Positions 26,722-52,424 of a DNA stretch of 64,000 nucleotides are shown piece after piece. Source of the stretch: Ceratodon purpureus (taxonomy: Eukaryota > Streptophyta > Bryopsida > Pseudoditrichales > Ditrichaceae); the NCBI GenBank assembly GCA_014871385.1, contig CM026425.1, positions 19,552,902 through 19,616,901 on the forward strand, in the 5' to 3' direction. A program made the position numbers and the translations under genes. Under the pieces are notes generated by a model. The model was not told the DNA's origin. It did no database searches and worked only from the letters and a program-made list of their open reading frames with translations. How positions within the stretch are numbered: position 1 is the first letter of the stretch; each line of letters begins with the position of its first letter.

Positions 26722-27756
26722 GATTGTTGCTTGACACTTAAGCTAGGAATGGTCTTATCTAAAGACGGAGAATTCTTCGACCAAGACGAGCAGACTGACT
26801 TGGTATATATCTTGGTTTCAGCTACTCCATTATTGTTCACGAACTCTGAAATATTCCACGAACTTTTAGGACCATTAACACCATATTAATTAATTTGGGA
26901 ATAAAGCATGTCCCATTTTGTCTATCACCTTAAACCAATGTCTTCATCTTAAACAAATCAGCCTTGAATGAGAGTCTTCGTCCGCCAAATTCAGAACGTT
27001 TTTTAATGAAATTCAGGCCAAATTTTGGTATAGGGTTAGGCAATAAAACCCATCTCACAACGGTTGCCTAAGCACATGCATTGGGAACTCCGGAACATCT
27101 TCGGGAACATATTGGGAACGTAGGGGAACATATTGGGAACGGTATGGGAACGTAAGGGGAACCTCCATGGAACTGGATCCTGATATAGATACATCATCAT
27201 CCTCATAAGGTACAGCTCTTTAACAACCTTAGAATGTAACATATTTTTATTCCTGACAACAAATAAAAATACAGTACTAAGTGTTATAACAAAAGCCGGG
27301 AGGTGCATCCATTTTAAAACAGTTTTGAAGAATGTTGAAATTAGTTATAATTATGATTTATAAAATTATATATATATATATATATATTAATAACTCTAAC
27401 TGCTGGAAAAATTAATCGACCTTCAGAAGCTGTAAATATTTATTTTAAATGTAGTCCAAGATAAGCCCTTCATTATGGCATTGGACTTTTTTTATTTCAA
27501 AGTCTAGTAGATTTTTATATGAAAAGCAACTAGAAAATGGAGGCGGCCACTTCAAGTAGCACCAACTTTATTATGCCACCAAAATTAAGGTAATCACCTT
27601 AATCACATTTTATATTCTTACAACAAATATTCAGTAAATGTAGAAACAACTCTTTTTTTTTCTAAGGTGCTCTTGCAGATACTATTGAATCTTGTCGCTC
27701 CCACCCACTTCATTAGCATACATCCAATGAAGAAAAGATGTAGTGAGAACTACATC

Positions 27757-28060
27757 TTTTTTTTTTTTTTTGGCGGCAAGAGCCACCGTTGAATCTTGTC
27801 ACTGCATCTTCAAGCTCAGTTCAGGTGCTTCGGGTGGGCCCTGTTGGTTGGTACAACATTTCCTGCCTGTGAATTTCTCCCCAGCAGTGCCAAGCCATGA
27901 TGTACCACATAATCGCTCATAACGAGTCCAATGGGTTTCGAACCCGGACCGATCGTATGTGACGCGCTCGTCCCAACCAACAGATTTGAGCTCATGGCTT
28001 GGCGAGAGAAACTCATACTTTTTCTCTCATATAGTGATTCCACATTGCTAACTTTACACA
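27757..28060 (-). mobile_element. tRNA-derived SINE-like element
   Basis: On the minus strand, an A-box-like stretch (GAGCTCAAATCTGTTGGTTGG, about 27999-27979, written in part as GAGCTCAAATCTGTTGG) is followed about 40 bp later by a B box GGTTCGAAACC (about 27946). About 180 bp of unique sequence then leads into an A run (T-run at 27757-27771 on +). This is the organisation of a tRNA-headed, A-tailed SINE transcribed right to left. I could not define a convincing target-site duplication. The reading frame through it has no other support. Confidence 0.6.
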
Positions 28061-28061
28061 T

Positions 28062-29064
28062 TCAAAATGAACGTTAGAGCTCATGAGCTTACCATGTATC
28101 GTTCATCTATGCCCATCAACAATATTCCTCCTAAATTGTAAAGTATGGTCAACATTTACATCATCAATATATCATATTTATAATTTACGGAAACTTTGTG
28201 TGACCACTTCCACTAGTTACATTAAGAAGGTCCCCTTAATTTGAATCACTACCCTCACTACCATAAAACATATTTGGCTAAAATTATAAGATACAAAAGT
28301 ATTCTACAATGCACTTTGAAAAGACTTATGCCCTCATGTAATGGATTAATTCATTAGTATGCAGCCATTGAGAATTATTATAAACGACATAATTTGTTAA
28401 AAGATTAATGTTAACATCCCAATCTCAGTCTTCATATGCATAGAATCTCTAGAGTGCATGACGTGTACAACGTATATCGTCCAGTATGATCAAACTCACT
28501 AATACTTACTTCGTATGAGCATCCGGAAGCCAAATGTCAGTGAATGAGAATCTACCCAGATCTCTTATACAATTAAGGTGGCCACCTCAATTTACATGCA
28601 TCGACGCAAGATGCTTCAATCTATAACCTACAAAAGAAATAGTAATGACTTCAGGAGGACACTTGTATATTACATGTCTTAACTCTCTCCCAACCCCCCT
28701 ATCTTACAAAATTAAGGTTACCACCTCAATCTGGACAGAGCAATGGAAAAATTCCTAAGACCGAAAGAATTGAAATCCGTTTCATTCATTTTGTCCTTAG
28801 TCATTTAACCTCCGCATGATTTAGAAACATGCATTCCTGGAACAAATCATCTATGAAGATAACTAAAACCATTGTGTATTATAAGCCAAACATTGACGAC
28901 TGTGTTCCCTTTTCTGGTCACACCGTATCATTTCACATGTGGATAGGTGATTTTAAATGGGGCAACCCATCATGCCAAGGAAGCATGAGGACTATTCACA
29001 GTTTCTAGCATGCATTACAACCGTTTATCATTTTTCACTTGAAAACTTTACAAAATCATAGAAG
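28062..29064. other. Intergenic DNA with palindrome copies
   Basis: No gene seen. It holds palindrome copies at 28221, 28572 and 28711 and otherwise AT-rich unique sequence. Confidence 0.5.
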
Positions 29065-29385
29065 ATGTCAAGAAGTAGTTCAAAGAGGGCAAGAAAACGA
29101 AGTACATCTCCCTGTGATTGTGACTTTGATGACCCAGTGAGGGAGGCAATAGAAAATAAAATTAAGCAACTGCCAAAAATTCTCCTGGATGAGGAGAGGA
29201 CGTCCGCTCTTTTGCGTCGGGTAAAAGAGGACGCAATGCACTTGAAAGGAAGATTGGAGGGAGATGTGGCGGATCTCCGGTTCGATTTGCGCAGACAACA
29301 GAAACACAGTGAGAGTGTCGGGATAAGATATGCTCATCTCATGTTGCGGATTAGCGAGACTTATCCTGAATTGTCTATATGGTGA
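29065..29385 (+). CDS. Small basic/charged unknown protein, 106 aa
   Basis: ATG 29065 to TGA 29385. The N-terminus is Ser/Arg/Lys-rich (KRARKRS, possible nuclear signal), followed by a Cys pair (CDCD) and a charged, helix-forming middle that could make a short coiled coil. I recognise no family. It lies inside the palindrome-rich unit, alone on the plus strand, with no visible splice partner. It may be an accessory gene of the unit or a chance frame. Confidence 0.35.
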   Translation: MSRSSSKRARKRSTSPCDCDFDDPVREAIENKIKQLPKILLDEERTSALLRRVKEDAMHLKGRLEGDVADLRFDLRRQQKHSESVGIRYAHLMLRISETYPELSIW

Positions 29386-29498
29386 AGATAGAATAAGAAA
29401 CCATTGAGTATAGCGGAATTGCAATACATACTCCAACTCCCTTCAGCAAGGTTGGTTATTATTTAATGCGTAATTTTAAATCATGCAAAGTGGCCTAA

Positions 29499-29810
29499 AC
29501 GAGTAGAAGAAAAATCCAATAAGCATCTAGAGTGAAGGAACTCGTACGGTGTAGAATTATACCCCAAAACAGGCTACAGCTTGCCATGCCCTGAAGCGTA
29601 AAATCATATTGATTCTACACTAAATCTTGATCCTGAGTACTCGTCGTGCCAGTGGTTGCAAATGGAGTTCATGTACAGCTCGTTGCATCACATATATTAA
29701 CTAATACTCTGAATGTGGTTTTTTTAAGCTAAATGGGATCAACACCCACTCCTTCAACTACAATCCGACTTCACTACATATTCTAATTACTTCCAGATGT
29801 GCAGTGAAAC
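29499..29810. repeat. 315-bp direct repeat, copy A
   Basis: Nearly identical to 30553-30868 in the same orientation (start cgagtagaa, end tgaaac), with scattered substitutions only. No coding frame is shared. The two copies are about 1.05 kb apart. Confidence 0.9.
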
Positions 29811-30552
29811 CTTAACCATATAATGCCAAATTGAAACAACTCTAGAAACTTCAAGTATTCTTCATACAACTCAAGAAGATTAAGGAGATCACCTCAATCC
29901 TGAAGTCTTGAAGATTCAGGTTCAGACTTCAATCCTGAAAACTGAAAGATTAAGGTGTTCACCACAATCCTGGATTCTCACTCAGTAGACAGACAATTCT
30001 GACCAGCGCAAAGCAGCCATATTTTACCAACTTATAGATGACAATTCTGTCGATAATACCATTATTTACTTGATGAGCAATACCTGTGCATTATAGTTAA
30101 ATTAAACTTAGTTTGTCCGCAATACAGACTGTACTCAATGTTTAAGGTTAATCTGCAATGGTACCATTGTCTTCAGAAGTATTCCAGTGCCACACAAAAT
30201 TTGAACCCGAATTGCATGCTATACAAGTACACATCTCCGCGTGAATATAAATGGAATTATTTAATGCAATTATAAGCAACCCTTACATTTTGTAATATCC
30301 TCCATAAAAGTAACGGTAGATTAAGATGACCACCTTAAATCTGGACTCCAAGTGAAACTAGAGACGTACTCAATCACCGCCAATCAAGATTATACCAACT
30401 ACCTGAATAATTCGGTTCCTAAAGCACCAACTTACACAGTCTGAGTCTCGAATTCGGTTCATCGATATAAGCTCCATCACACCGTGAAGCATCAAATGAT
30501 GCATGTGTGCACATCTATGAAACATCTGCAAGACGACTTAGACTTTTTAGTA

Positions 30553-30868
30553 CACGAGTAGAACAAAAATCCAATAAGCATCTAGAGTGAAGGAACTCGT
30601 ACGGTGTAGAATTATACCCCAAAACAGGCTACAGCTTGCCATGCCCTGAAGCGTAAAATCAGATTGATTCTACACTAAATCTTGATCCTAAGTACTCGTC
30701 GTGCCAGTGGTTGCAGATGGAGTTCATGTACACCTCGTTGCATCACATATATTGACTTAAATACTCTGAACGTGGTTTTTTTAAGCTAAATGGGATCAAC
30801 AACCAACTCCTTTAACTACAACCCGACTTCGCTACATATTCTAATTACTTCTAGACGTGCACTGAAAC
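30553..30868. repeat. 315-bp direct repeat, copy B
   Basis: Second copy of the 29499-29810 repeat. Palindrome copies lie between the two repeats (29879, 29949, 30320), so the repeat is interspersed within the same unit. Confidence 0.9.
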
Positions 30869-31185
30869 ACCTCCAACACTGACTAAAAATATATACTAGT
30901 CAAAGCGAATTTACTAATTGAAATGCATCAAATAAATGTGAACCGAGAAGAAAATGGCATCACGACCTACAAAAATTCATGCAACAATGTCTACCGGAAG
31001 GTCAAGGTCTCATTACCTACTGACAACATTTGCAAAACCTTGAGCCCTATTTCACATCCAACATACAGAACTTCACGATATTAAGGTGGACACCTCAATA
31101 TGTGCTTCTTCAATTCTGAAATTACCCCTCATATACAACTTCCAAAGTATGAGTATAACACTGCACTGCTGACATCCAAGGTAAT

Positions 31186-34100
31186 CTATTGTGAATCCGA
31201 TGTTCCAGGGTCCTCATCATCTTCGTCACATCGCTCTAGATTATCCTTCGCCAATCTCACTTGCAGATCCGGGATGGTAATGTGTTTGGCTCCAGCTCTT
31301 GGTTTCCAAGCAGTCAGAATCGAATCAGTGTGTACCCAGCATGGTGGCTGATTGGATTCTGCCTTCCACTTCAATGCGGATCTCCCTCCTATATCCCATC
31401 CCTGGTACGATTCTTGTACACTCCGGTCTTTCTTGATGGGTGTGAAGTACTGGACCTGAATGTGTTGGTAGTGCTCACTTGTGGAGGAGAGTCTAGGATC
31501 GGACAGTGCCAGAGCGAGCCAAACAGGTTTCGGGTGAAGTCCGTCATCGCCAGGCCGGAGCAACAACATGTACCCTTCGCCACAGTCACGAGCAACTCGA
31601 AATGAAGGCATGGGTCGTTGCCTGGCAGGGCCAATATAGTGTTCGTCCTCAGCAAACTCCTCCCTGACGGTTCCATTGCCTGTGAAAATGTCGTTCGTAC
31701 TCACTCGGCCTCGAGCGTTCGGCCAGAATCCATCGGCGAGGACAAGCCGCGCCGAAGGCAACACGGTAGAGGGCAACTCCAAGGCCTCCTTCACACCCTT
31801 CCAATACTCGATCAATGGCCCATGCGTGGCAAGGTAACTCCCAGACAAATCCTGCGCTGCCAGTGACTCCTAATGCCTAATGAAGCCCGCCAACCCCTTC
31901 ACAATTTTGTCCTTGTTCCGCATAGGTATCGGAGTTGCCGCAAATGGATCTCCAGTCGGCAATCTTTGCTTCCCTTCCGCATCAGTAGACCACAGCTTAA
32001 TTCCCCCCGCAGGCTTCCATGTTTCCTCCGTGCATAAAATCTTGAACTGCATGATAGGTTCACCTTCGCGCATGGTGAATTTGAACTGCTGCCCCTTCGT
32101 GTGCCCAATAAGTTTGTCCCCATCCTTTGCAATATAAGGTAATACAAATGCCTTGAAATCAGGAACTTCTTCGATCAAGTGGGGGATCACCTTGCCAGTG
32201 TTCTCATCAAGATTCATATACGACTCCATTAGCGATGGAAGGGTTGGGTAATCATGCTCCCACGGCTTCATACTCCATCTACCGAAGGAGGCGTCAATAT
32301 CCTCATGAGTGTGACCTACCAGAAGAAATGAAACAAACACCTCTTCGAAGACCCCCCTCGCAACCAGAAGGGACCAAAAGCAGAACACAAACCTACTTTT
32401 GTTATCCTTCCAGCAGTTGTCAAGTTGCACATGTAGTACAGGAGGTAGGGGGGCTGCATCCGTGGATTCTCCTGAAACTCCTAATGCTTCAATGCATTGC
32501 GCCTTGTCTTGAAGCAGAGCATTGAACAGAGGCGTCGTCCCAGCATTTTGAAAAAGTTCACCCGTAGCTGTGGCTTTGGGACGCTCTAGGTCTCGAAGCA
32601 GTCTAGCAATATAGCCAACTGTGTGGTTCGAGTCCGCTGGATACAGATCAAGAGAATAGTGTGCGTATCGAACATCACCATGCCCGTGGGCAATCATGCC
32701 AGTCACAGAAACGGGAAGTTTCATAAATCCCTCACTGTTCTTGTTGCGGTTTGCAAAACAAGGCGATGTTGTCTTGGAATGATCCATCTTATCATGTATA
32801 ATTGTCAAAACGTGATCAGGCTTCTGGATTGACAAATACCTTGAAGCATAATAGGCCTGTCGGTGCGCTTCTTGTTCAGCGAGGTGACGCTGGAATGCGT
32901 CGGCATAATATACGTAAGCAGTGGATCCAACAGCATGAGCGCTCCTGAGTTGTTTCCTTCTGTCACATGTACCACACCTAGCAAACATATCGCCACGGCG
33001 TTTAATAATGCAATCACTGAACTCCGAGCGCCTAAGGTAGCTCACTGCTGAAGGGGATATGTCTGGCAATCCCAATGCTTTGTTAACCTGCATGGAAAGA
33101 GATCATTCAATCATTATGCGTGGAGATGATGTTCACTTCAAATCTCGAGATGGACAATCCTAACAACTTTTAGTACAATTATTCATGTTTACATATTTAC
33201 TGATATCCAACCAACAATAACGGCGATTTTACACAATATATCTCTGGGTTTAAGGCGACCACCCTAATTCATAACTTCCAATCACTCAGGCGAGTGCACA
33301 TCCAACCCAGTGCAAGCACCTCAGTTTGTTAATCATTATCTCAAAAAAGCCAGACTACACTTTACACGAACAAGTATGCATCCTGTTAATGTCAACATGT
33401 GGTTACATAGTATCTCACAGGATCACTACCCAATCACAGTCTTACAAATCAGTTATAAACGATTATCAATTAACATCCAAATAACACTGCAAATCATCCA
33501 GCACAAATTAAGGGGGTCACCTTAAAACATCTACTAGTTATAATTTAAAAGGCCAATTACCGCATCGACATACTAAAGCTTAGCAGATACTAAATAGCGC
33601 ACCTGAAATGTTACTCGAATGCTATCTATGATTAAAGCTAAACACAGTTTAGACTACAAGAATCTATGCTTCTTTCATACAGAAACAGTTAACTCACTTA
33701 CATCATAAATATGGTTTTGCTATACTTAATACGTTTGTGCTTAGAGATGTAAAACATATCCCATCCTGATACGTCGTCCAATGAAGACGTGAATGTGTGT
33801 ACCCGAAAAGATTAAAATGGTTCAACTAATCACCGATACCCGAGTGGGCAAATTCTAATCAAAAAGTCCTCTACGTTAGGGCTATGGAGAATAGTAGATT
33901 TAGGTACTTGAACATAATATATTACAGAAACAACCATGCTTTCAATTTTCTGGTAGGATCCATTGCTACACAATATTTAGGACATGGATCCATTAAAGTT
34001 GCAAACATAGCCGTGCATAATGTGGATAGGAGATCAGCAAACAGGTAAAAAACAAGACCACTCTTAGAGGTTGCGATGTCTACAAACGTACCTCGTTCAG

Positions 34101-35929
34101 CTTCCCCCTGATATCCTTCCATTTTGTCCCGGCAGACAGCACTCGTTCTACCACCCTCTCACCAGAAGGCAGGGTTCGAAACCTATGGGGCATGAGATCC
34201 GCAGATGCCTCAACGATGCAAGCAAGTGATGCGGAAGCCTGCCTTGTACCTGCTCTACGCTTCTTTGTACCACGATTCCCATGGTGACTTGATCGAACAC
34301 CCAACCCTGCATTAGCGCGCTGTCTATAGAACTAAGTTTTAGAGACTGCCATGATGATCATCCAGCCTTTAAGGCAAACTTCGTCGTTTTCAAGGAGAAC
34401 ATACTTCCTATCTCCCCCACGACGTACATGTCTATGGACTTCTAGTTTGATGTGTGACCGTAGTTTGTGATCCGAAGACCACATTTCGTGTCGCAGACTT
34501 TTCACCACTTCAGGACTGATCTTCCTTGTGCACCTCCTCATGCAACAAGCTTTAGTAGACACTTCAAACAGCGACTGCTCGCTCGTAAGGCGCTGTAGTT
34601 TATCTGAACGCATGCGCTGTCGAACACGTGTTGTTCTGTATTGTCGTTTAGGGCCGACCCTCCGATCTCCCTGCACTTGCTCTTCGAACACTCTACCTAG
34701 GTCGAATAAAGACACACCATCGCAATCGGTAGCTCTTGACGACCATCGACGAAGCGAGTACTTCCAACCGGCAGGCACAAAGTCTTCGGCAAACGATTCC
34801 AAAATCAGGATGCCCACATCCTCTGAACCAAGTGGTTGACTGTCGACACAATCGGAGGAGTCGCAATTCCGAACCAAACCAGCACCAACAAGTACTCCAT
34901 CACTATTTAGAAGTTTGACGTTACGGTTCAGCCATTCAGGCCGAGGTAGTCCAGCACGGATAGGTTCAGGGTTTTCTCCACCATATTCCGTCTCACCCTC
35001 AGATTCAGGCCCACTTGATTCACCTTCAATCTCACTCTGCAGCACATGAGAGAATAGATACATTACTCTGTGCATGTTTTCATTACGTCACTAGTACAAC
35101 AAGCATTGTATGTTATAATGGGGCGATGAACGTTCTTAGAAACGACTATGACAGTAGTATTATAATTAGATGTAGTCTTACCGCAGTTGGAGTAGCCAGT
35201 GGAGTCGGGTCTGGAAGACTGTCTCCAAGTAGAGCAGGATCTCTACATACAACAATGGGTACCTTTAAACAATTCATATATTCGAATTGCTCCGACAATA
35301 TAGAACACTCGATATAGACATATTATCTCAATAAGTTACACCACGTTTGACTCGAAGTACCCCAAAAGGGAAGTAGTCGAATATCATCTACGTAAGCAAG
35401 AGAAATAACTTAATCCTGTTTAAAACCTGATTCGGATACATAAATTTATTTTAATAAGCAGTAATAGTTCATAGCGAACATTACAGTGGACTCAAATAAA
35501 TGTGGCAAGGATAAATCAGACGTTCAATAAAGAAGCTCAAGTTCATATGCAAATAATTATTAAGTGTAGGAACGAAAACAAATATGCACATTATTTGTTG
35601 GAATTCAGGAGGGCTCCTTAATCCAAACTACATGTGAATCACCCTGTAATATATAAGCGATTCAATCATTTTCATTAATGTTAATACATATACATGCAAC
35701 GAAAACGAACCATGATTCTATAACTTGGAAAGTATCTCACCGTTTAAGATGTCGGGCACGCGGATTGCAGCCTCCTCGATTTCTCCTTCAAAGAGAATCT
35801 GTGTTGCATACAACTCACATATATTAATAGCCCAGTCAGCGGAAACAAACACCAGATTGCCACGAAACATTCTAGAGAAATGCAATAAATATATACCTCT
35901 TCGGACACAGGGGCCTGGATATCCGCCAT
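31186..35929 (-). pseudogene. DUF7869-like putative RNase-H-fold transposase gene, two in-frame TAGs
   Basis: Exons (phases agree) are 35929-35897 (ATG 35929, MADIQAPVSEE), 35798-35741, 35240-35182, 35036-34092 and 33087-31186, giving 999 codons. After an acidic N-terminus there is a Cys-rich segment (KACCMRRCTRKISPE) and the family-like segment GWMIIMAVSKT-FYRQ, then HHGNRGTKKRRAGTR. The long last exon contains a CGTC pair, HDKMDHSK (about residue 464), HVQLDNCWKDNKSRF (D about 588) and LLVGHTHEDIDASFG (about 622-636). These fit uncharacterised plant/metazoan DUF7869-type proteins. The D / D / H-x-x-D/E spacing suggests an RNase-H-like (DDE) nuclease; that is inference. In-frame TAG codons at 34334-34332 (inside the conserved SKT-FY motif) and 31872-31870 interrupt an otherwise continuous frame. 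Palindrome copies lie in intron 33088-34091 (33249, 33507), in intron 35241-35740 (35603) and on both sides of the gene. Confidence 0.7.
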
Positions 35930-38391: not shown

Positions 38392-39162
38392 TTAGTAAGG
38401 ATTGGGCTCTCGGCCCAAAACCCTGATGAACGTGCTGGGGCTTTCTTCTTCCTCGGATTCCAGAGCCTCATAAGTGTAAGTACCACTGCGTCCACTTCGG
38501 TCGACTTCTTGAACGCTCTGGGTAGAACTTTTGGCGCCTTCATTGTGGGTCCCGTCTTCCAGAGGCAGCAATCGATCATTAGGCGCTGTAGCGGGCATCA
38601 ACGCTTGAGATGAACCAGCCTCCTCCGCGCATAAAGTACACAGTGGATTAAAGGCCCGGCTATGAACGCCATGCTCCAATCCGGAAGATCCACCTGCAAC
38701 ACGTTGTTGGGACGTTCTGAGGATGCGTGGTCGATGCATGGGTCGATAGGGAGGGCTTGCCCTCACCAAAGTCAGCTGAGCCGGCACAGAATTCGATAAA
38801 GCTTGCCCCCTCCCCCTTCGCATAGGTCCGTGGCGACAAGTTCGGGAAGGATCGGCTGTTATTGCGGCCGCCACTTGGTGGGGTACACCTGCAGGTAAGA
38901 CTACATCCGCAACACCTCGTGGTACATGCACATTAGGGACGAAGGTGAAGTTGAACGCATTATTCACAGATTCAAATTGAGTTTGACAAGTTAGTGTCCA
39001 TGGAAACATTGCTCCAGTGTTCAGCAATGCTAGAATGATTGCATCGTGAGCTAGGATACCCCGAAAGCCTCTTCGCTCATGGATCCTACGAATTTCGATT
39101 AACCACTGCAGGAGTTCTACTGAAGACTCCGGATGAGGGGGAGAGATCGTTGGCATCGGCAT
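38392..39162 (-). CDS. Unknown 256-aa protein, Pro/Arg/Ser-rich C-terminus
   Basis: Frame from ATG 39162, just after a possible splice acceptor (tttgtag), to a stop at 38392. Residues 1-100 look folded (LLQWLIEIRRIHERRGFRG, then NAFNFTFVPNVHVPRG). The remainder is low-complexity and Arg/Pro/Ser-rich, with a CTLC pair near residue 175. I do not recognise it. It lies upstream of, and on the same strand as, the DUF7869-like gene, and could be a second gene of the same unit. It is also inside the stretch that lacks palindromes. Confidence 0.4.
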   Translation of the reverse strand: MPMPTISPPHPESSVELLQWLIEIRRIHERRGFRGILAHDAIILALLNTGAMFPWTLTCQTQFESVNNAFNFTFVPNVHVPRGVADVVLPAGVPHQVAAAITADPSRTCRHGPMRRGRGQALSNSVPAQLTLVRASPPYRPMHRPRILRTSQQRVAGGSSGLEHGVHSRAFNPLCTLCAEEAGSSQALMPATAPNDRLLPLEDGTHNEGAKSSTQSVQEVDRSGRSGTYTYEALESEEEESPSTFIRVLGREPNPY

Positions 39163-40165
39163 TGTATTCTACAAAGAGGTGATCAAATTCGAGAACGCAA
39201 AATCAGAAAACTTGGGAGAGAAGAGAACAATGCCGTAACTATACTAAAGAAGGCCTTCAGAGTCACCCTTGAGGAGAACAGAGGTTTTGCAGAGGCAGAA
39301 ATGGCGGCACGAACTACACTCTAGCTCCGTCACGAATGATTCATGTTATGGACATGAAAGGCTGAGTGATCTCTATCTCAGAGAGTTATATCAAGCTCCC
39401 ATACATATGACTGGTTACCTCCACGTAAAAGTCCTATTATGAATCATATACAAATGTCAAAGTGATTTATCCTTTCAACTAAGACGTAACCTTGACAGTA
39501 AGTTAAATTTTACCTTTCAATAACTGAGGGACCCCACTTTCCAACACTAAATAATTGAAACCGTATTCAATAATATAGGTATATCCGATAAAAAAACAAA
39601 TGTCAAATTATAAGCGAAAAGTAGGAAAACTTCCCTACCCCTAAGGGTGGGTGGGCGGGACATCCCTTTACAGGGCAGCTTTTATCACCTTCCTCACCAA
39701 ATTTCATTCTCAATCAGCCCATTCTCAATTCAAACCTAATCAAATCTGTACATTCTCTTGTGATTCCAAATTACCAGTATAGACACATAGTGCTTTTCAC
39801 CAAAGAATTCTCAATCAACACACTACTTACAATATAGTAGTGTATGACAAAACAATCCAAATAATAGAGAAAAGTTTGTCTTAAAACTGACAATACAAGA
39901 TCAAACACAAAATAGTTTGAGTCTCCAGAAATCTTCTCATCCCTTGAATGTTGATGTAGTAAAGTAAGAAAAATCCAGAGGTAAAGGACCTCACCTGTCC
40001 CCATAAACACAACCAAAACCACAGTTAGGATTATGTTTGTAGACAAGGTGTCAACAGCCCTTTACAGCTTGTTATTGCAGTCACAAGAAAAATCAAACCC
40101 TACACCAAACATACAAATCAAAGGGAGAGATGAAAGAGTCTAATTGCAATCATAAATTAGAAGAC

Positions 40166-40195
40166 CTGAGTAGTAGTTCCACTAGACTCAGCCAT
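40166..40195 (-). CDS. Possible short first exon (MAESSGTTTQ) behind a TATA promoter
   Basis: On the minus strand a TATAAAA box (40344-40338) precedes, by about 143 bp, ATG 40195 in the context caacATGGCTG. Ten codons follow to CAG|GTCTTC, a usable but weak donor. I could not identify the next exon. The surrounding 39.6-40.6 kb differs in texture from its neighbours (short GTAAGCCCCAAGTAAA repeats at about 40493-40535; G-rich TAAGGG-TGGGTGGG motifs near both ends), so this may be the head of an inserted, truncated gene or element. Confidence 0.2.
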
Positions 40196-40337
40196 GTTGC
40201 ACTTTGCTTCAGCTCCACACCACCATATACCAAAACTTCACAAGCTCTAAAAATCTCTCACACACACATGTAGCAAACTAGAATTACTTTCAAAGCAGAC
40301 AAGTAAACAGATGCATATGGCCAAGAAACTCCCATGG

Positions 40338-40344
40338 TTTTATA
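40338..40344 (-). promoter_or_regulatory. Candidate TATA box
   Basis: TATAAAA on the minus strand about 143 bp upstream of ATG 40195. It is supported only by spacing and the following start codon. Confidence 0.25.
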
Positions 40345-41960
40345 CCCTCAAAGAAGTTTCTAGAGATTCACTTGTTTGTTATATGGACAGGAATAGCCTC
40401 GCTGGTCCAATCATCTCTGACCCTTAGATGAAGGTTAACCTAGATCAAATGGTCATAAATTAGTGACTTGCTAGAGTAAAGTTCAACCTTGTAGTAAGCC
40501 CCAAGTAAAGTAAGCCCCAAGTAAAGTAAGCTTCAAGTTTGGAGTAACTACCAGTAAGCTATGTGTAAGGGAGGTGGGTGGGTTTCACTAATTTACACCT
40601 TATTCAGCATATCATGCCATAATAAAGTGACTATGTAATTGCTTGCAAAGTTTTAGAAGTAATGTGCAAATTTATTTTGCAAGCCTACAGAACTGAAGAG
40701 TGCAACTTCTGTCTGAATCATTGTAATAAAAACCTTATTTAGAAAATAAATTCTAAATTAAATACGGGTATAAGATCTTCCCAATATTTTTAAAAAAAGA
40801 ACAAAAAGAAAAAGAAAAAAGTAAATAGTGCAAATCAGCAAATTAAGAAATAAAAAAACCATAGAACCAATTAGAAAACGAGAGAAGTTAAATAAAATAT
40901 ATTATAGAAATGTAAACAACAATCTCAAATTTGAAATAAATTCTTTCCATGGAGATAAGAGGTTCCTGGCAAAAAAATAATAAATAAAAACAATAAATTT
41001 TATCAAAAAATGAAGATAAAATAGATCAATAAACAAAATCAAATAGAAAATACGAAAATGATGAGATAAGATAAAAGATAAATGATAACACGTGGAGATA
41101 ATGAGTTATTCCCAAAAAAACATTAAAAAATATGAAGAGAAGATAATGAATTTATAAAAAAAGAAAAATAATTAAATAAATAAACAAGAATCAAATAGAG
41201 AATGAAAAAATGGGTGGCATAAATTATAAGAGGATTGATAACTCGTGGAGAAAATTAATTATTGGAATAAAAACAACAAAAAAAATGTAGAGAAAATAAA
41301 GAAAGGATAAAGCAATTCAAAATAAATAAAAAACAAAAAATAAAAATAAAAAAAATTTAACTTGAGGATATTGATGAGAAAATTATAAAAAAAAATGAAA
41401 AAGAAAAATTTCAAAATAAATTTACAAAAACTAAAAATTGAAGAACAGAAAGAGGATGGAAGGAATTTTTTAAAACGGGACTGATAAATGAGTACAAATA
41501 TAAAAAGAAAAAAGTAGAGAATGAGTATTAACGGACTACACAAGTAATCTTAACAATTAAAAAAATACCATTTCACTTGAGGTAAATGTTGGAATATGTA
41601 TATGTAAACATACATAAACTATTGAATGCATAGCAATATATGTAAATTTACATATACATACAGGCTCATTTACACAATTACGAATGGATATATAGAGTAC
41701 TCATTAATGTTCATTAACCATAAAGTAGAGAACATGTTATAAATCAACCACTCTTTAATATTAGAATCTTAGAATAAAAATTCAATTGTTGTACTTTTGT
41801 TATAATTTTTTATTTGAATATTATATATATATATGTTGTGATATATGTAAAATTATAATAATTTATTACCTACACTCTCTATTTGTTTAATAATTATGGA
41901 ATACAATAGAATTATATATGTGTCAATATATATATAAACATATATAAACATATACTTACT

Positions 41961-42595: not shown

Positions 42596-42598
<3 letters not shown>

Positions 42599-43380: not shown

Positions 43381-43507
43381 AACTATGCATTACATTTTTT
43401 TTTTTTGGAAGCAATAAAAGAAAATTCATTGCCCAGAAATAGAGTACAAACCCTCCTCGGACAAAAGTCCAGGGCGTAAAGAATCAGGAACAACTATGCA
43501 TTACATT
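43381..43507 (-). mobile_element. Short retroposed insertion with 16-bp target duplication
   Basis: AACTATGCATTACATT occurs at 43381-43396 and again at 43492-43507. Between them are about 95 bp starting with a T-run on the plus strand. Read on the minus strand this is a short sequence ending in about twelve As. The structure is that of a SINE or 5'-truncated LINE end. The body contains a small hairpin (ggacttttgtcc on the minus strand). No coding content. Confidence 0.8.
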
Positions 43508-43879
43508 CATGTCATGCAGCCATGCGTGAATTCTAAAATGAGCATCTTCCTAAGTATTTAATCCAAGATGAATTTTTAATCCAAATGCTGCCGTTATTCT
43601 TCTGACACAACCTATCTAAATATCGATCAGAATTCCTACAATTAGTAAATAAACCACTTTGTAGAAAGTCGCACCTTACAAGTAGCATGATTTAAAATAT
43701 GCTACATAGAGGGCTTGTATTCTTTTTTCTGCAAAAGAATCCCTTTGCGTCCAAAAAAATAAATACAATAAAAAATGCTACATAACGCGCTTAAATTAGA
43801 AAGATTTGAGTCCACCAAGATCATAGCATTGCTTGTTTAGATCCCACTGTATTTAGATAAAACGACAAACCTTTATCTC

Positions 43880-44735
43880 AATGGACCATTTTCGACTCCG
43901 CGAATTAAGGTGTACATCTAAATATAGTTCATTCTTTGGCGTCTGCTCTGAAGTCCACATTCTTCATAACTTTAATTGAATACGATGAGTTTTCACGGGA
44001 AGCACCAGTAGTTCATGGTGGTGGTAAACGGGGGTGGGTAGGCAGTAATTCATTTTGTCTCAGACCCTATCTATCTTCCAACTTCCAAGGACAGGGCGGG
44101 GGAAAATTGATGATCTGCAATGCATGAGTTGTAAGGTTGATTCTCCTGTAAAACTTAGATGTAAGTACTTGATGTGTGAATTTCCTATAATCATCAGGAA
44201 TTGGAAGATTAGAAACGACTCTACAAACGAAAGCACTCCCAATTCCCATTAATGTTTTGGATGTTTTTCTTAACGATAAATATTCTCTTATAAATTCCTT
44301 ATTTTTTTGAGTATATTTCAAAATGAAAGTGTTAGTAACACTAATTCGAATTTAAGATACAAATTGCATAAACAACATCCACTCTTTATACTCAAGGTGG
44401 TTTTTAGTAATGGAAAAAATTAGGCTCCAAGAATTAAAGTGCACATCTAAAATTACTATATTATCTTGATGTGTGATTTTCCTAGAATCGTCAAGAATTG
44501 GAAGATTAAAAACGACTCTACAAGCGAAAGCATTCCCAAATTCCATTAATGTTTTGGATGTTTTACTAAACGATAAATACTCTGGTATTAATTTTATATT
44601 CTTTTCAGAATATTTCAAAATGAAACCATTAGTAACACTATTTCGAGTTTAAGATACAAATTTCATAAATGTCATCCACTGTTTATGTTCAAGTAATTTT
44701 TAGTAATGGAGTTAAATGAACCTCCGTTTCATGAT
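43880..44735. repeat. Diverged tandem repeat, unit about 298 bp
   Basis: The stretch 44170-44467 (starting tgatgtgtgaatttcct) is repeated at 44468-44735 with roughly one change per ten bases. Each unit ends in, or is preceded by, a palindrome copy (43904 and 44433) in matching context, so duplication multiplied the palindrome too. Confidence 0.75.
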
Positions 44736-44989
44736 ACTGCCTTCCATCAAATGGGACTGATGCAACATGTTATTTTTCCATGCAGCCTAAATCCAGCACT
44801 CTCATCGTATCATTAGTCATTATGAATTACCATTACCAGTTTTCACATATCAAAGGATGACTGAAGAAAGTGTATGATTTGCATAATGACTTGTCGAGGG
44901 CATTGTCACATTAAAATGATTTTCCAGCATGTAGCCGCCAGTGGAAGCCCACATTTTTGTGATCTGATCATAACTTGTTCCCGCCATGA

Positions 44990-46705
44990 TTCAGTTATCT
45001 CTCCCACGTCATCATTCTGACTCAAAGAACTTCCTGAATGTTCCCAGTGACGACCTTCTCCTGTTCCCCACATGTTAATGAACATGTTTGTGCGTTCCCC
45101 TCACCGTTCGCATGACCTTCACGCTCATCGACCTCCTCCTCTCTGCTGTATCCCTTCCCCATTCTCTGTCCTCCTCCTCGTAGCCTTCAGTTATCCTCCC
45201 CGTCGTCTCGTTTCTCTCTCTCGTGTCTCAATTCGTGTGCTTTGGTGCCGCAGTCTACACCATCTTCGCGATTCGTAAGAAAATATTGTTGTGTAGAAGT
45301 TGGAGTTGAGGTTTTGGAGGTCATAGAGCTGTCATTTGGCGGTGTTGGAGATCGAGCTGGAAGGTGGAGGGTTGTTGTTTTTTGGTGTGCGTGTGAGATC
45401 TGCACATCGTCTCGCAGCTACGACGTACTCTATCTAGGGTTTCTCAGACCTCAGGTGGTTAGTAGTGCACGTTGTTTTGACGTTGGCGAATCGCTATCAA
45501 CACCTTGTCATACGCTGCGTATGTCAGGTAATTGTTTTGCACCACATCTTTGTTGAGTAATTTATCGCTGTGATCGTACTGTAACATGAAGTAGCATCTT
45601 CCAGATAGTTTGTAATGTTGTACTTTTATTTCTGCTTCTGTTGCACTGCAAAGTCTGTGACGTCTTCGTTTAGAACTCCATATCCGTCGTTGGATTTGAT
45701 GAAGTGATGTTTCTCTGGAGCGCTACTTGTATGCGTAATGTATATTGTGGTCTGTAAGTCATTTGCGTGGTTTGCTCACGTAGTCCTGAAACGCTGTTCG
45801 GTACGAAGCCTTGGGTATTCTCAGTAGTCTAATCTGTTCTTGTGTAAATTTGCACATGGTCAAGCATGTCTATCTACACCCCCTCAGCTTCAGTCGTGTT
45901 TTTCCTCTACTTTTTGCTGGAAGTTCACATTTAGATAGGTTTTAGATATTGGTCAATGTCTTCGTGTCAATGATGTTTAAGAGTAGTTGTTCAAGTTGTA
46001 TTAGCACACACATTGTTAGAGGTCAATCGTCCACGCTTAATCCCTACTTGTGCGCAGTAGTGATCGTATCCGTGTCTGTACAGTCCACTTTAATTATACG
46101 TATACAGCCAATCGTACGGTCATCAGGTGTTTCGTCATTTTCGTACTCCATTTTAGCATTGAGGTGATCAGCTTAAATTTATTCCATATGGTTTTTAAGC
46201 ACTCTATTACTGGGTATCCTGAAAACCGAGTTCATTACGGTTTCTAGTGAGCTTCATAATCTGAGATTACCAGATTGGAAGCTTTTTTCAGTTTCCACGT
46301 GTAGAATCATTCTCTATGATATTTTCTAAACCTTAGTGATAGCACGGTTTCAGTACCACTCTTCAGATGAGATTCAGGTGCCCACCTTATTCCCAGTCCA
46401 TATGTCTAGGTTCTAACTTATTTTTCTACGAATAGAGAATGTGGTATTCCTTTGATGATGCATATGTAGTTTGTTGTTGTCAGTGTCTACTATGATACAT
46501 TGGGATTGAGGTGCCCAGCTTATTTCAACATCAGATTAGGTTCCGGAAATCGCATATCAAACATGGAACGTTGAGAATTTTGTTTAGGGTTTAATGTTTA
46601 GTTCTCTAACAATGCGTTGGTATTCAGGTGCCCTTCTCAAACATTGTACTGAATTTTAATACAGGGTTCTAAATTTCTAAGCTGTTTACCTTTGTGAGAC
46701 GCAAG
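44990..46705 (+). promoter_or_regulatory. Probable promoter and 5' UTR/intron of the ParB-like gene
   Basis: A pyrimidine-rich (CT) block at about 45105-45235 resembles a plant promoter Y-patch or 5' UTR. It is followed by possible leader exons and a donor-like GTCAG|GTAATT near 45525. Four palindrome copies (46158, 46372, 46505, 46622) sit in the last 550 bp before ATG 46706. The open frame at 45242-45556 lacks an ATG and is probably not coding. The location of the promoter is inferred. Confidence 0.35.
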
Positions 46706-49700
46706 ATGACTACAAACGACCCTTTTCTCTTCAGGATTGCTATTCGGCAGGACGATTGTCCAAGCGATTGCGACACAGATTTTTTTGAGGAGATAGAAGA
46801 AGTTTGCTTTACGGTTCGAAGCGAGGTGGTGGATACAAGTGCAGGGTGGTTTTTGGCAAGAGAGTCCGCAACGTCACCTATAGCTTCCTTGTACGTCAAA
46901 TTTCTAGAGAGAGACAGCCATGTTCCAGTGACGGGCCACGATATAGTATCCTGCAAAGCCACACATCCTTACATATATCTAGTGCTTCAGCGACCTGATG
47001 GTCTACGGGAGTCCTTATTGATCAAGACTTTAGATTTTGGTCTAAACCACCTTGAATTGCGAAATGCATGGAAGGACACTAATCTAGCCGCATTCATTCC
47101 TGAGGCTTTCAACAAGGAATCGAACAAGTCTGGCGTCATTCAAACACAAGTGGAGAAGTTGATCACTAAATTGAAGGAGTCCGTCACGAAAAAGAAGAAA
47201 AAGGAGAGGAACAAGAAGAAGGACCAGGGGAGTTCCTCAGGGGTGATAGATCCGAATATAGAACCAGCCGTTGTTGATAGTGTACGAGGTGCTCCTAAGA
47301 AGGTGCCTAGAGGCAAGAAGCAGCATAAGAAATCTACAGAGGTGGTGGTGGAACAAACTGTTACCGAGACAACAGATCATGAAGCACTAGAAGATATTCC
47401 TAGTGGCCATAACCTATCTTCAAATCGCAATGCGGACGGTACAGTTGTGACAGAGGAGTGCATCCGGAGGTTCAAGAACTTCCGAGATGATTTCGGGAAG
47501 TATTACCCTCTCGGGTATGATACTCTGGTGGATATTGATGTGGAACAGGTGGATATTGCACCGTGCAACTACATTGTCCGGGTCCTGGAGAGTGAGGGTG
47601 TCACCGCGGTTTATAACACTCTGTTGACGCAGGTTATTCCAAATAAGCAAGTCCTATGTCTCTATCCGCAGGGGTTGACAAAGATCCCAACTTCATGGGA
47701 AGAAATCAAGAATCTTCGATTTTACGCCATCAACGGCCAACACACTGTGAAGGCAGCTCAAAATATCTTGAAGTCCCCCGACATTGATGGTGCGAGGAAG
47801 GACATGCTGCGTACATGGAAAGCGCAGATTGTATGGGATCTTGAAGCTTGGAAGATCCAAGCAATATCGGATTACTATAACCAGTCCAACCAAATCAATC
47901 CGTTCAAACCAACATGGGCTTCGAACTTGGTTCATGTGAGGCGGATCTGGGTTAAGATGGGGAAGCCGGAGAGAGTTAGGGGTAATGCGTCTGACAAGGC
48001 AAGCCCCGAGATGTCCAAGAAACGGAACGACTGGAATGTAAGTAACGCTCCTGAACCATCTCTTTGAATTGTAATTTACCTGCCACCGATATTCAGTTGG
48101 TTACCTTAATATGAACTCAGGGCTGACTATGACAGAGTAGTACTGCTTTGAGAGTATATGAAGGCGGTATCCCGAATCTCAAGTAAATTTTCTTTTAAGA
48201 TGATCACATGTATCGGATCATTAGGAGAAAAATGAGCTAAAAATAAGGCCGTGTAAGCCTGCCCTTTCTAGGTGAACTCCCTACTTTGGGCACCTCTGCC
48301 GCTGGCAGCGGATGCCAGAGTTGCTGCCCGCACAGAACTGCGTGGCGCACTCACAACAAAGGTCCTCGGAATATTAGGTGAGACATGAATGCCTCGGCTC
48401 GGGCTTTGGTCCCAAGTGGGCAGGTTGTGTCAGCCCGACACTGTAGATGTGCCCTCCACACGCCTCCCTCGGAGGTCATTGGTTCGAGCCCCCGTGGCGG
48501 TTGCTGGCACCACGGTGGCACCACACATGCCATGTCAAAAAGTACGCGGGCAGCACCCGTTTTTTTCTCTCACGTGCCGCTTACACGGCCTTTTTGTGAC
48601 CTGATTTTTCTCCTAATGGTTTAGAAGAAGATTGCCCTCTAAATCACTAGTAGTCCAATAAGTATCGATTCGAACTCGTAGAAAACATTAAGACAAAAGG
48701 TTAATATGGAAGTACAACAGTTCTGGTAGATGTTGACAGTTCCGTTCTTTTGATGTCCACATTTACGTTTCTTAGAAAATGTAATTGACACCTAAATCTC
48801 CAGCAATTAAGAATGACTCCATTCGACCTTAGACAATATTAAGATGGTCTGCTTAATCTGGGAGTTGCAGTTCATGCTAGATGTTAGAAGTGTTTCTTGC
48901 GAAAACCAAGTTTACGTGATCTATAAAATACGAATTGCACCTTTATCGCGAGAAGTGAAGATATTATCCATTTCTACTTCAAGACAACATTAAGATGGAC
49001 AGCCTAATCTTAACGTTACTATGATCAGTAGATTTGTTTTTATTTTTTTATTGATTAGCAGCTTTACTAGATCTATTGAGGACGAGTAAAACCAAAATGA
49101 CGAATAGCAAAGACAGTATCCCTTTGTATTCAACAAGGAAATTAAGAAGATCATCTTAATATGAATGTAAAAGTTCTTGCTGGTCTGTGTATTTTCCTTT
49201 TAGGTCTAATGTATTCGCGAATTAGTTATTCATACTTTCTCTTACTTGACAACAATTCGCAACAATTGATCAAGTAGTGTGAGTGAATATTGTTGCACGA
49301 GTTTACAAAAAGGACTGACCTAAAGCTCTGCTTTGGACGAGTTTGTGGAATTTGTACTTCTTTCTTGATTTAACTGGTTATATCCTACTCCATTACAAAC
49401 TACTCTAGATTTGACCGTATTAGGTGTGTACCCTGATACTTAAGAGGGGAAATAATCATCAGTCAACATTAAGGTGTCCAGCTTAATTCAATTATTGTCA
49501 ATCAATCGTTTATTATTCTCTTGGGTTGACCAGTTTCGTATTGTGTTATTGGACTGACATACCCTTCTCCCTCCCGCAGAGATTCCTAAATTCTATGATA
49601 CAGACGCTGTCAAGTGTGCGGTCAAAGAAGGACACCGCAGAGAGAGATGACAAACTCATCAAGTGGACTTTCAACGAAGTCAGATTTGAGTGGACGTTAG

Positions 49701-51022
49701 TCAGATCCAGCGACGACTGCTGGAAGAAGTGGGAGCGATTTTTTACGAAGCACGTCAAAGGAGAACTGATATGCCCTGAGCTTGGACACCAGATTAAGGA
49801 TACACCAAACTTCAAGAGCAACATGAAGATAATTGCCCCACTAACAAAGAACTGGTTCAAATGCGTAGAGTCCCTTACCGAACGAGAAATTGACAAGCTC
49901 GTCACGTATCTCTTGAACGAGAAGACTGATGATGACAAGCCCATCCCTATATACCCCAAGGTAATCCCCTTTACAGTGAAAGGCGCTTCGAAGAGTCGCA
50001 GCATTCTCTCAGCTTTAGAGTGGGGAAACAGGAAGAGAACAAAGAGGCATGTTATTGGGGAATTCAATCGTTACACTAAGGGTGAATTTGGATTGATTGA
50101 AACTACGGCGGTGAAGGGACTAGACGAAGCTCACGATGTACACCGCAAGAACTGGAGGACGTTCAAGAAGGTCCACATGATCTCTTCGAAGACGATGGCA
50201 AATGTGGTGGAGTCAGCAGGGGAGAAATTCTTCAACAATTACGAGGGAAGGAATAGACTCGACAAAGGATTCTTACCCGCACCGTTCATTGAGTCAATTC
50301 GAGCCGTTGTCGAAACGAAATCCGAAGATGCCCTCACTACCGATGTCGGTGCTTGCATTCTGGTAAAAAACGAATTCACAACACCAGGAGGCGAGGTGGT
50401 AAAGAAGGGGAATTTCACCACAGTAGGGGATATGCAAAAAGGGGACATTAGAGAGAAGACAAATTTTGAATGGGTGGCATTCATTGATTTTCGCAATGTA
50501 GAAGGTGTCGTACCTGGTTCCGACTTAGAGCATCCTTTCTGGGAGTCATTTGTCAAGAAGCTTGAGGCATTTAAGATTCTTAGATGGTCCGAGACACCAG
50601 TTTGGATCTGGATTACTGACGATTCACGGAAAGAGCAGGTTCAGGAGTTATATAAAAGGAAGCTGAAAACAACTCATCTGAAACCGGTCGAGGCATACTA
50701 CCACCCGGACGCTATGGAAGGATTTAGATGCGAGAAAAAGGTTAAGGGGAATGTGGTGACAATTTATTACATTGTGAAGGAACAGTGGGTCGTGCCGGCT
50801 TTGACTAATGTCTTCAGGTGTTCAAAGTTGAAGGTGTACACGGAAGGTAAATACCGGTACTACACAGGAGAACTCCGGATGGAAACTTATATTAGGATCC
50901 TTCAGGAAGTGTCCGGAGCATTCAGGTCGGTTTTCAACATCTACGGCGGGCGAAAGCTAATGCTTGCGTGTCAGGTAAACATCCTAACCAGATTCATAGA
51001 GATATATAGATTTTCTACTTGA
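46706..51022 (+). CDS. ParB-like domain protein with degenerate methylase-like C-terminal half
   Basis: Exon 1 is 46706-48037 (444 codons, donor GTAAGT). Exon 2 is 49580-50974 (465 codons), after which either a further exon follows (donor GTAAAC at 50975) or the frame ends at TGA 51022. Residues 1-150 look folded; 150-250 are a Lys-rich, nuclear-signal-like linker. Around residues 325-360 is a ParB/Srx-like motif (FYAINGQHTVKAAQNI) followed by a helical region and DYYNQSNQ. Exon 2 contains FEWVAFIDFRNVEG...PFWESFVKKLE...PVWIWITDDS. By eye this follows the same strand-D-helix-strand order as the methylase motif IV region of the 57.6-62.4-kb gene, but without a catalytic tetrapeptide. Both large exons are free of stops. 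The 1.5-kb intron holds five palindrome copies and a MITE. Confidence 0.6.
48220..48617. mobile_element. 398-bp MITE, copy 2
   Basis: Same length and nearly identical sequence to 13774-14171 but in opposite orientation, with the same inverted ends and the same ATTA...TAAT flanks. It is inserted in intron 1 of the ParB-like gene, right beside a damaged palindrome copy (about 48193-48212). Confidence 0.9.
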
Positions 51023-52424
51023 ATCCTCTTCTGCGATTGTGTCCACCAGAGTGTTATTATGTTGCATGACTTATAAGAGATGATTGTTCATGTATGATGC
51101 AATTGCCACATTTTTATATCTGCGTTTTTGTAAATAATAGGCAAGGTATAAATGCAAGCTGAATTAAGGTGGTCTTCTTAATTCATTGGAAATATTGGAC
51201 GTTGTCGTACAGCCTAAGACCGTCAGCTGACTACTTTGATAGACTCTATGTACATTAAGTAGTCCTTACAGTACATGAAACTATTTTAAAAACAATTATA
51301 CTTGTGTTTGGATGACCTTGATTAAGATGATCACCTGAATCTTGAATATGTTATGTCTTTGTTGAAACGATATCCTTTTGGATCAACCGGTGTGTAATTG
51401 AATATGTCCATTTGGAGTTTAAAGGAAGGAATTCCTAGTCCGTCACTTGCAATGACAAAATCTAAGTATTCGTGTGTTATTCGCAGATGCTGAAAATGAA
51501 TGTGTATACCTTTTGTGACCAAGACTCCTTGGACGATCTCCTATCCCTCAAGTCAAAGGGAGGGTAGCTTGTACGTGAGCGCAAAGCGCAGAGCGCAGAT
51601 TTGGAGAGCGGAGAGCACAGAATGGGGGACAGAACCTTAAAATAGCACTTTTTTTACTGAAAATAAATTATAAAATTAGAAGATTCGAATATTCTTAGTA
51701 TATTTTTAGAAAGTTACTAATTTTAGTACTTTTATTGACCCTATAACCGTGGACTAATTACAGTATTTTCATTGAATTTGTAGTTCATATTCTCTTTTCT
51801 TGGTGATTAATTTTTTAACGTGCACCAATTACTATGCTCCAGCTCCTTCTAACTAGTTCAGGCATACAGTAATTCCCGTTATCTCCTTAAATTTATATGC
51901 AAATTACTACTTAAAATGTATTGGTATTGAACCTCCCAACAAGGATCAAGTAACATTTAATTTCGTAACATTTTATTAACATTGCTAGAATTCATCGACC
52001 GTAGTCTACATGCCTTTCTCCTTTTCTTTTTTTTTTTAATTTTCTTGATATTTGTCTTGTATTTTTTATAAAATTTTCTTTATTCTATCTATCTTGTTAG
52101 AGGGGTCAAAAGCCTCCTTTCATTTAATTCTCTCCATTTTATTTTCACAATCATTTTATTTTCACATTCAATTTGTTAATCTCCATCATTTTATTTTCAA
52201 CCTTCATCTTAAATATTGCTATTTTTTTCTTTAATCTTTTTAATTTCAATTAATATAAATGTTTTTTTTTTTTTTTTTTTTCCTTCTTTAAATTTTTAAA
52301 AAACAATTTAAATGCTCAATGACCTCTGCTAAACCTTCATCTTTTACCATTCGGTTTAGGAGGATGACAACTTCTCAATGAATGAATAGCCGATTTTCAA
52401 GGGCGCCAAGCATCTTCTTCAGGG
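51023..52424. other. 3' flank of the ParB-like gene and AT/T-rich DNA
   Basis: Holds palindrome copies 51163 and 51321 (the last ones), a GAGCG-rich repeat (51571-51628) shared with 55992-56050, and a T-rich tract (52262-52280). No gene recognised. Confidence 0.5.
51571..51753. repeat. Dispersed repeat, copy 1 (GTACGTGAGCG ... GACCCTATAACCGTGGA)
   Basis: A GTACGTGAGCG start, then GAGCG/CAGAG-rich sequence with gagagcacagaat, then gaccctataaccgtgga at 51737-51753. The same two blocks occur in the same order at 55992-56050 and 56083-56099. The two copies flank the Mutator-like gene pair as direct, not inverted, repeats. Confidence 0.65.

Follow-up and report, generated by a model that had tools for sequence, protein, structure and literature searches.

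The stretch of DNA analysed here (the window) comprises 64 kb of the moss Ceratodon purpureus, contig C5:19,552,902-19,616,901 of a 362-Mb genome in 151 contigs. It holds the first segment of P, a giant DNA transposon with terminal inverted repeats (TIRs) that is 30-32 kb long net of insertions, carries a DUF7869 gene and a ParB-like gene, and is strewn with the 20-bp palindromes that are the subject of this study. The initial annotation of this DNA had taken the palindromes to mark out one 24-kb unit; the unit is instead a transposon that extends beyond the window and is interrupted by nested elements. A further 100 kb was read on each side, and window-relative coordinates above 64,000 lie beyond the right end of the window. 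The features of P within the window, other than the palindromes, are as follows.

26873..26876: target-site duplication CATT, 4 bp; second copy after the right terminus
26877..26901, + strand: left terminus of P, inverted repeat AACACCATATTAATTAATTTGGGAA, with its right counterpart at window-relative 121,063-121,087
26877..51559: first segment of P; later segments at window-relative 85,397-88,026, 100,646-102,971 and 118,974-121,087
31189..33102, - strand: DUF7869 gene, main exon, candidate transposase; PF25273, E=2.1e-42; one in-frame stop
34335..35087, - strand: DUF7869 gene, N-terminal exon, rich in Cys and by eye helix-turn-helix-like; closed by an in-frame stop, beyond which the copy on contig C2 continues
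38395..39168, - strand: open reading frame (ORF), 98% conserved in the other copy of P
39,630-40,792 and 48,245-48,618: stretches of P without a counterpart in the C2 copy
46706..48037, + strand: ParB-like gene, exon 1; splice sites by eye
49580..50974, + strand: ParB-like gene, exon 2; no family match above cut-off
51487..51559, + strand: ParB-like gene, first part of exon 3, interrupted by a nested element and continued at window-relative 85,397

A giant transposon with DUF7869 and ParB-like genes

The ends of P became apparent from comparison of loci, as the initial annotation had proposed. A second copy on contig C2, approximately 98% identical overall, aligns in pieces with window positions 26,875-51,559 (95.4-98.6% identity) and then runs into window-relative 85.4-88.0, 100.6-103.0 and 119.0-121.1 kb at 98.9-99.3%. 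Beyond the window, palindromes scoring at least 16 bits (the matrix is described below) occur on the right side only, at window-relative 86.4-87.4, 101.5-102.2 and 119.5 kb, and the C2 copy explains these groups as parts of one element split by nested transposons. Both copies read have perfect 25-bp inverted repeats as termini (AACACCATATTAATTAATTTGGGAA at the start, its exact inverse at the end) and 4-bp target duplications, which read CATT for the window copy and ATTT for that on C2. P therefore has the two marks of a TIR DNA transposon, terminal inverted repeats and a target-site duplication. It starts at window position 26,877 and ends 57 kb past the window; its segments sum to 31.8 kb within a 94.2-kb span, and the C2 copy measures 30.2 kb, excluding a 10-kb run of N. 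Two of the three interruptions have 10-11 bp of P repeated on either side, the pattern expected of target duplications, and near the third a 0.5-kb piece of P is duplicated (window-relative 100.6 and 118.5 kb). Inverted repeats at 23.9-26.9 and 57.3-59.6 kb were considered as unit ends and rejected, being parts of another transposon family; that family, which recurs at window-relative 69-155 kb, has a ParB-like plus methyltransferase-like gene. Seven copies of GGGAAC at 27,083-27,162, close to the left terminus of P on its inner side, echo the GGGAA of that terminus and may be a subterminal binding motif.

The DUF7869-like gene that had been noticed amid the palindromes is genuine, the main exon scoring 145 bits against a curated PF25273 cut-off of 26. 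Intact copies exist; open frames of 638 and 332 aa are present in the C2 copy, and a relative of 635 aa that is 98% identical is found in the protein database. An alignment of 22 DUF7869 relatives has the invariant motifs HDKxDHxKT, QxDN and GHxHxDxDA, which look like those of a DDE/D-type transposase. DUF7869 is abundant in this genome, with 150 matches scored of 1,400 candidates.

Exon 1 of the ParB-like gene matches four proteins in the protein database at 64-99%, and introns 1 and 2 hold seven of the window palindromes. For the protein encoded at 46.7 kb, neither Pfam nor a PDB sequence search yielded a ParB domain; its likeness to a second ParB-like ORF consists of one motif (E = 0.42), and its structural model (pLDDT 37.5) is too poor to use. 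Likewise, no methyltransferase domain was recognised in the ParB-like exons of P. ParB-like matches number 102 genome-wide (93 of 688 candidates scored), mostly on contig C6, which exceeds 110 Mb and is perhaps a sex chromosome. Intron 1 also contains an element of about 400 bp with inverted ends of about 40 bp (48,219-48,634), which is absent from the C2 copy of P; its other window copy, at 13,757-14,172 in a CACTA-like region, is 97% identical and in opposite orientation.

The palindrome array of P

Within the window, ATTAAGGTGNNCACCTTAAT has 25 matches at up to three mismatches, all between 27,584 and 51,340, in comparison to a mean of 0.04 and a maximum of 1 over 100 dinucleotide shuffles (scripted as first-order Markov samples). 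A symmetric matrix trained on these window sites, with strong sites set at 16 bits or more, adds a site at 46,622 (19.9 bits) that is absent from the three-mismatch list. The 20-bp palindromes placed at 27.58-51.34 kb by the initial annotation, about 27 by its count, are real.

27584..27603: palindrome, 25.6 bits
28221..28240: palindrome, 22.6 bits
28572..28591: palindrome, 28.8 bits
28711..28730: palindrome, 24.5 bits
29879..29898: palindrome in 35-bp tandem repeat 29,876-29,972, 27.0 bits
29949..29968: palindrome in the same 35-bp tandem repeat, 22.8 bits
30320..30339: palindrome, 26.2 bits
31080..31099: palindrome, 27.4 bits
33249..33268: palindrome, 20.4 bits
33507..33526: palindrome, 24.4 bits
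35603..35622: palindrome, 23.6 bits
36204..36223: palindrome, 25.9 bits
36637..36656: palindrome, 25.2 bits
36727..36746: palindrome, 25.1 bits
43904..43923: palindrome, 21.8 bits
44433..44452: weak palindrome, by matrix alone, 13.4 bits
46158..46177: palindrome, 24.2 bits
46372..46391: palindrome, 23.0 bits
46505..46524: palindrome, 20.1 bits
46622..46641: palindrome, by matrix alone, 19.9 bits
48091..48110: palindrome, ParB-like gene intron 1, 19.2 bits
48838..48857: palindrome, intron 1, diverged ~151-bp tandem repeat, 23.9 bits
48989..49008: palindrome, intron 1, same ~151-bp repeat, 21.0 bits
49141..49160: palindrome, intron 1, same ~151-bp repeat, 24.4 bits
49468..49487: palindrome, intron 1, 26.2 bits
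51163..51182: palindrome, intron 2, 26.5 bits
51321..51340: palindrome, intron 2, 27.2 bits

That the palindromes occur nowhere else in the window holds for the three-mismatch matches; by matrix, one isolated position, at 9,010 (16.7 bits), is the sole window position above 16 bits beyond 27,584-51,340. None of the 26 window sites touches predicted coding sequence, which makes up 28% of the span (p ~2e-4 under even placement). The claim that the sites are restricted to noncoding DNA stands for the window and fails for P as a whole, where an open frame of the ParB-like tail takes in 3 of 36 sites, which there encode peptides like IKEVSLIP, and one more site borders directly on the next frame. 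Along P there is about one site per 0.9 kb over 30 kb, in introns and intergenic DNA, partly multiplied as tandem repeats.

The array is confined to the element. Sites of at least 16 bits number 36 in the 31.8 kb of P segments and 1 (16.7 bits) in the other 232 kb around them; the C2 copy likewise has 36, and the rest of its 60 kb has none. Genome-wide, the strict pattern ATTNAGGNGNNCNCCTNAAT has 658 sites, in comparison to 1 for the reversed control, and the 50 listed, on contigs C1-C3, are clustered, one site standing singly. With the sites clustered, the uniform genome-wide density that would have spoken against a unit-specific family is not what is seen. The proposal of a mobile unit with a transposase-binding-site array fits well, the motif being restricted to a transposon that ends in inverted termini and is flanked by target duplications, and the palindromes are very probably a transposon-borne binding array. 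Two variant clusters, at C1:122-134 kb and C1:28.95-29.0 Mb, consist mostly of ATTTAGG[AT]GATC[AT]CCTAAAT and perhaps represent another family with a shifted site.

Retention of the motif through divergence provides the strongest evidence for what appears to be selection on the sites. The relative L034 (C3:12,704,001-12,714,000) has 62% and 68% protein identity to P in exons 1 and 2 of the ParB-like gene, and its introns 1 and 2 have no blastn match to P at E<=1e-3. It nevertheless contains 16 sites averaging 25 bits, of which five are in introns 1 and 2 and one is a perfect ATTAAGGTGATCACCTTAAT. Weak similarity to P extends over 72 bp around one flanking site (72%, E=7e-4). Because the matrix was trained on the window, L034 serves as an out-of-sample test.

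The motif of P can be written approximately as RRATTnAGGtGR-YCaCCTnAATYY or as ATTAAGGTGRYCACCTTAAT; it is degenerate and made of two half-sites, with R-R preceding and Y-Y following the 20-mer and, by column counts, little conservation beyond. Compensated variation of arms and centre (ATTAAGG...CCTTAAT, ATTCAGG...) had been suggested and was rejected: Watson-Crick pairs make up 180 of the 234 arm positions, and random reassignment of right arms gives a mean of 182.5. Two arms without covariation make a degenerate site of two half-sites, fitting the need of a dimeric DNA-binding protein. The same lack of covariation argues against RNA hairpins in introns that act as splicing or processing signals. 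In the gene sense, the non-Watson-Crick pairs of the window sites are G-U in 18 cases and A-C in 3, as hairpins might show, but this excess is not repeated in L034 (4 and 5), for which reason the hairpin was rejected. In addition, conservation is among the highest at the innermost G9 and C12, which a hairpin would leave unpaired in its loop, and this explanation is very improbable.

Some palindromes lie within tandem repeats (26-151 bp, several loci taken together), which could suggest an origin as tiny mobile elements or as remnants of some larger repeat. However, among the 14 pairs of sites whose 40-bp flanks are most alike, the flanks are 36-53% identical and the sites themselves 65-90%, so that this origin is scarcely credible.

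Termini of P type are widespread. At up to two mismatches the terminus pattern occurs 71 times forward and 71 times reverse, with 0 for the reversed control. The 100 of these 142 termini that were listed include 31 inverted neighbouring pairs less than 100 kb apart, of which six are perfect and span 27.6-30.1 kb. A ParB-like match is enclosed by 23 of the 31, and all 23 pairs of P type or T type enclose one, which makes a role of the ParB-like protein in P possible. The other eight enclose none of the ParB-like matches entered and have one terminus variant in common, AACACCATATTCATTAATTTGGGAC; a DUF7869 match lies inside five of them (among the matches entered, in open frames of 942-980 aa for four pairs and of 641 aa for the fifth). 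P and the 942-980-aa DUF7869 elements thus have related termini.

The remainder of the window, to the right of the first segment of P, is occupied by other elements.

51560..64000: satellite and nested SWIM-domain and ParB-methyltransferase transposons, inserted into P and not counted as belonging to it

A repeated giant transposon occupies window positions 51,560-62,200 and window-relative 69-161 kb, with several copies in both orientations beside and inside P. It has a SWIM-type gene (by eye), a small gene, terminal repeats of GAGCGGAGAGC type and a gene of several exons that combines a part resembling ParB by eye with an N4/N6-methyltransferase-like part, the latter matching PF01555 at 21 bits, below the cut-off of 26.7. 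A satellite of 211/422-bp units runs from 62,449 to 64,000 and on to window-relative 65.9 kb. Most of its units contain a perfect 20-bp palindrome, TACTGTCGTCAACGACAGTA, with the 9-N2-9 layout of the P motif, and a second tandem array at window-relative 77.2-78.8 kb carries a similar palindrome. On the left, CACTA/EnSpm-like ORFs at 9,176-13,475 encode DUF4216, DUF4218 and a tnp2 transposase.

Palindromes at other DUF7869 loci and the candidate binders

Two other DUF7869 families in this genome were sampled at one locus each, with ORFs of 966 and 678 aa, and contig L001 was read as well. The dyad search, which made no use of the P motif, is given first, since the consensus counts used patterns taken from the same loci. 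At the 966-aa locus the 6-mer search counted TTAGCT-N7-AGCTAA 21 times, where 20 shuffles gave at most 1; its consensus, TTTAGCTCAC-N-GTGAGCTAAA, has 33 sites at up to six mismatches (shuffles at most 2), none of them in the ORF, with 26- and 54-bp tandem arrays on both sides. At the 678-aa locus GTCGGC-N5-GCCGAC occurs six times against at most 1, and the consensus CGTCGGC-N5-GCCGACG has 17 sites at up to four mismatches (shuffles mean 1.6, at most 4). The result for L001 is weaker, TTTAG-N11-CTAAA occurring five times against at most 2 as 5-mers and twice against 1 as 6-mers; the consensus TTTAGCTCGA-N-TCGAGCTAAA has 12 sites at up to seven mismatches where 0.8 are expected (at most 4), and none is in the ORF. 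TTTAGCTC is common to L001 and the 966-aa locus, and the P half-site TTAAGGTG is loosely similar by eye.

Within the 4.3, 9 and 6 kb read at these three loci, tblastn found no ParB-like exon and found DUF7869 pieces in all three. With a different palindrome at each of three DUF7869 loci where no ParB-like match was found, the arrays appear to follow DUF7869. This bears on the parallel to bacterial ParB-parS drawn in the initial annotation, in which the ParB-like protein would bind the palindromes and nucleate a complex for segregation, marking or modification of P. In both systems several palindromic sites lie close to a gene with a ParB-like motif. Each of the 23 terminus pairs of P type or T type tallied has a ParB-like match inside, and on C2 and C3 the multi-site clusters among those listed coincide with ParB-like loci. 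A ParB plus methyltransferase gene of a brown-algal giant transposon has also been suggested to bind and modify its own element (PMC12477816). Against this, Pfam and PDB gave no ParB match for the protein of P and the model of that protein is unusable, the sites are spread over a 30-kb transposon, three arrays are present where 4.3-9 kb contained no ParB-like hit, and partition would have no clear use on a chromosome-borne element. The parallel is possible but unlikely to be the explanation, being less supported than a self-recognition array.

Plain transposase-binding sites, on which a DUF7869 transposase would assemble the transposition complex, are also rather unlikely. Such sites would account for arrays accompanying DUF7869 in P, the 966-aa locus, the 678-aa locus and L001, and for the related termini of P and the 942-980-aa elements. 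The palindromes, however, occur throughout 30 kb, introns included, and are not gathered at the ends; the first window site is 707 bp from the terminus, and the termini lack the motif.

A dyad site is by itself silent on which genome makes the protein, and a host transcription factor or silencing factor might bind the palindromes. The different palindromes in different DUF7869 families of one genome, and the near absence of the motif outside P in the stretches read, render a host factor improbable.

DUF7869 genes were also found in contigs binned with bacterial metagenome-assembled genomes (MAGs). L001 comes from the bin of a cyanobacterial MAG and shares 47% identity with the query protein. 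The distant contig L002 comes from the bin of a Bacteroidetes MAG, and palindromes such as CTTGTGTTCGTTTCCGAACACAAG occur in its 89-bp tandem repeat at 4986-5162. The DUF7869 genes of L001, L002 and a third such contig, L003, look like eukaryotic contamination.

Proposed self-recognition by a DUF7869 transposon

The interpretation that on balance appears likeliest is that the palindromes form a dispersed self-recognition array of a giant DUF7869 DNA transposon. Each palindrome would be the site of an element-encoded dimeric DNA-binding protein, most likely DUF7869, possibly together with the ParB-like protein, whose gene is a possible accessory; on the comparison of loci, confidence that the binder would be DUF7869, or a protein always found with it, is evenly divided. 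The protein would coat the noncoding DNA of P along its whole length, telling its own element from others, and the coating would protect P from host silencing or reverse it. Such an anti-silencing function, suggested by analogy, is plausible, with confidence a little short of even. Bound protein may perhaps also control its own transcription, and site and protein specificity would change together in each family. More tentative still is the joint claim that DUF7869 defines a superfamily of giant TIR transposons, with AACAC..TTTGGGA termini and 4-bp duplications, in which each family would carry a distinct code of dispersed palindromes, recognised by the DUF7869 protein of that family.

Known transposons offer partial parallels. 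CACTA/EnSpm elements, which have CACTA termini and a 3-bp duplication, encode a protein that binds repeated short TNPA motifs of their own transposon. P resembles them in its repeated short motifs, which would be bound likewise, and differs in that the TNPA motifs are subterminal and that its own termini begin AACAC... with a 4-bp duplication.

The VANC anti-silencing system of Arabidopsis VANDAL transposons (PMC10398659) is comparable in other respects. The VANC21 motifs of VANDAL21 are described as family-specific and scarce in other DNA; they occupy noncoding parts of the element, such as introns and upstream regions, and are commonly arranged as tandem repeats (PMC5735166). The P array, too, lies in noncoding regions and is rare elsewhere (36 sites in P against 1 in 232 kb), and is a short family-specific motif, partly in tandem, that differs between related families. 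VANC proteins, in contrast, have DUF1985, for which the P ORFs scanned (part of P) gave no Pfam match, whereas P encodes DUF7869 and the ParB-like protein as putative binders. The brown-algal giant transposon Sola1-1_Ec32 has ParB and DNA methyltransferase accessory genes, which are said to occur also in green and red algae, and nested insertions and broken transposases are reported there as well (PMC12477816). Its transposase is Sola-1 and not DUF7869, the ParB-like exons of P are without a recognised methyltransferase domain, and the main text of that source never uses palindrom*.

Several observations weigh against a self-recognition array. The DUF7869 gene of the window copy has two in-frame stops, so that the element would rely on proteins from other copies. 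The DDE-like assignment rests on invariant His/Asp positions, and the DUF7869 model (mean pLDDT 60) gave no confident PDB match and no RNase H match in a fold search. In L034, five further sites form an 84-bp tandem that is possibly in the coding tail of the ParB-like gene. Of the 72 ParB-like matches entered, 23 are in a listed terminus pair and 49 in none (100 of 142 termini listed), and the two C1 clusters of the ATTTAGG..CCTAAAT variant have no ParB-like match among those listed. Each of the other DUF7869 families read is represented by one locus. At the 678-aa locus a position of the sites outside the gene is doubtful: 3 of 17 fall inside 1773-4522 (two with four mismatches and one with two, in an open frame between DUF7869-matching stretches), 5 of 17 are in a 452-aa open frame just upstream (4526-5881), and 2 of 17 are shifted readings of their neighbours. 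For the two distant contigs L002 and L003, covered by a palindrome listing and not by the dyad search, the listing showed palindromes in one tandem repeat of L002 and no repeated palindrome in L003. Additionally, the VANC21 motif YAGTATTAY is 9 bp long, in one orientation and not palindromic (PMC5735166), whereas the sites of P are dyads.

DUF7869, uncharacterised and very abundant, is now tied to definable transposons and candidate DNA sites. Co-evolution of protein and site is directly testable, with four loci, four palindromes and one protein type. If the superfamily claim is true, the moss elements would constitute an anti-silencing or self-recognition system of an origin separate from VANC, in which site arrays and protein specificity co-evolve across well over a hundred copies in one moss genome. 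If the arrays do counter silencing, they would be a second, palindrome-based case of the kind of action known from VANC in Arabidopsis, and a possible source of targetable DNA-binding proteins.

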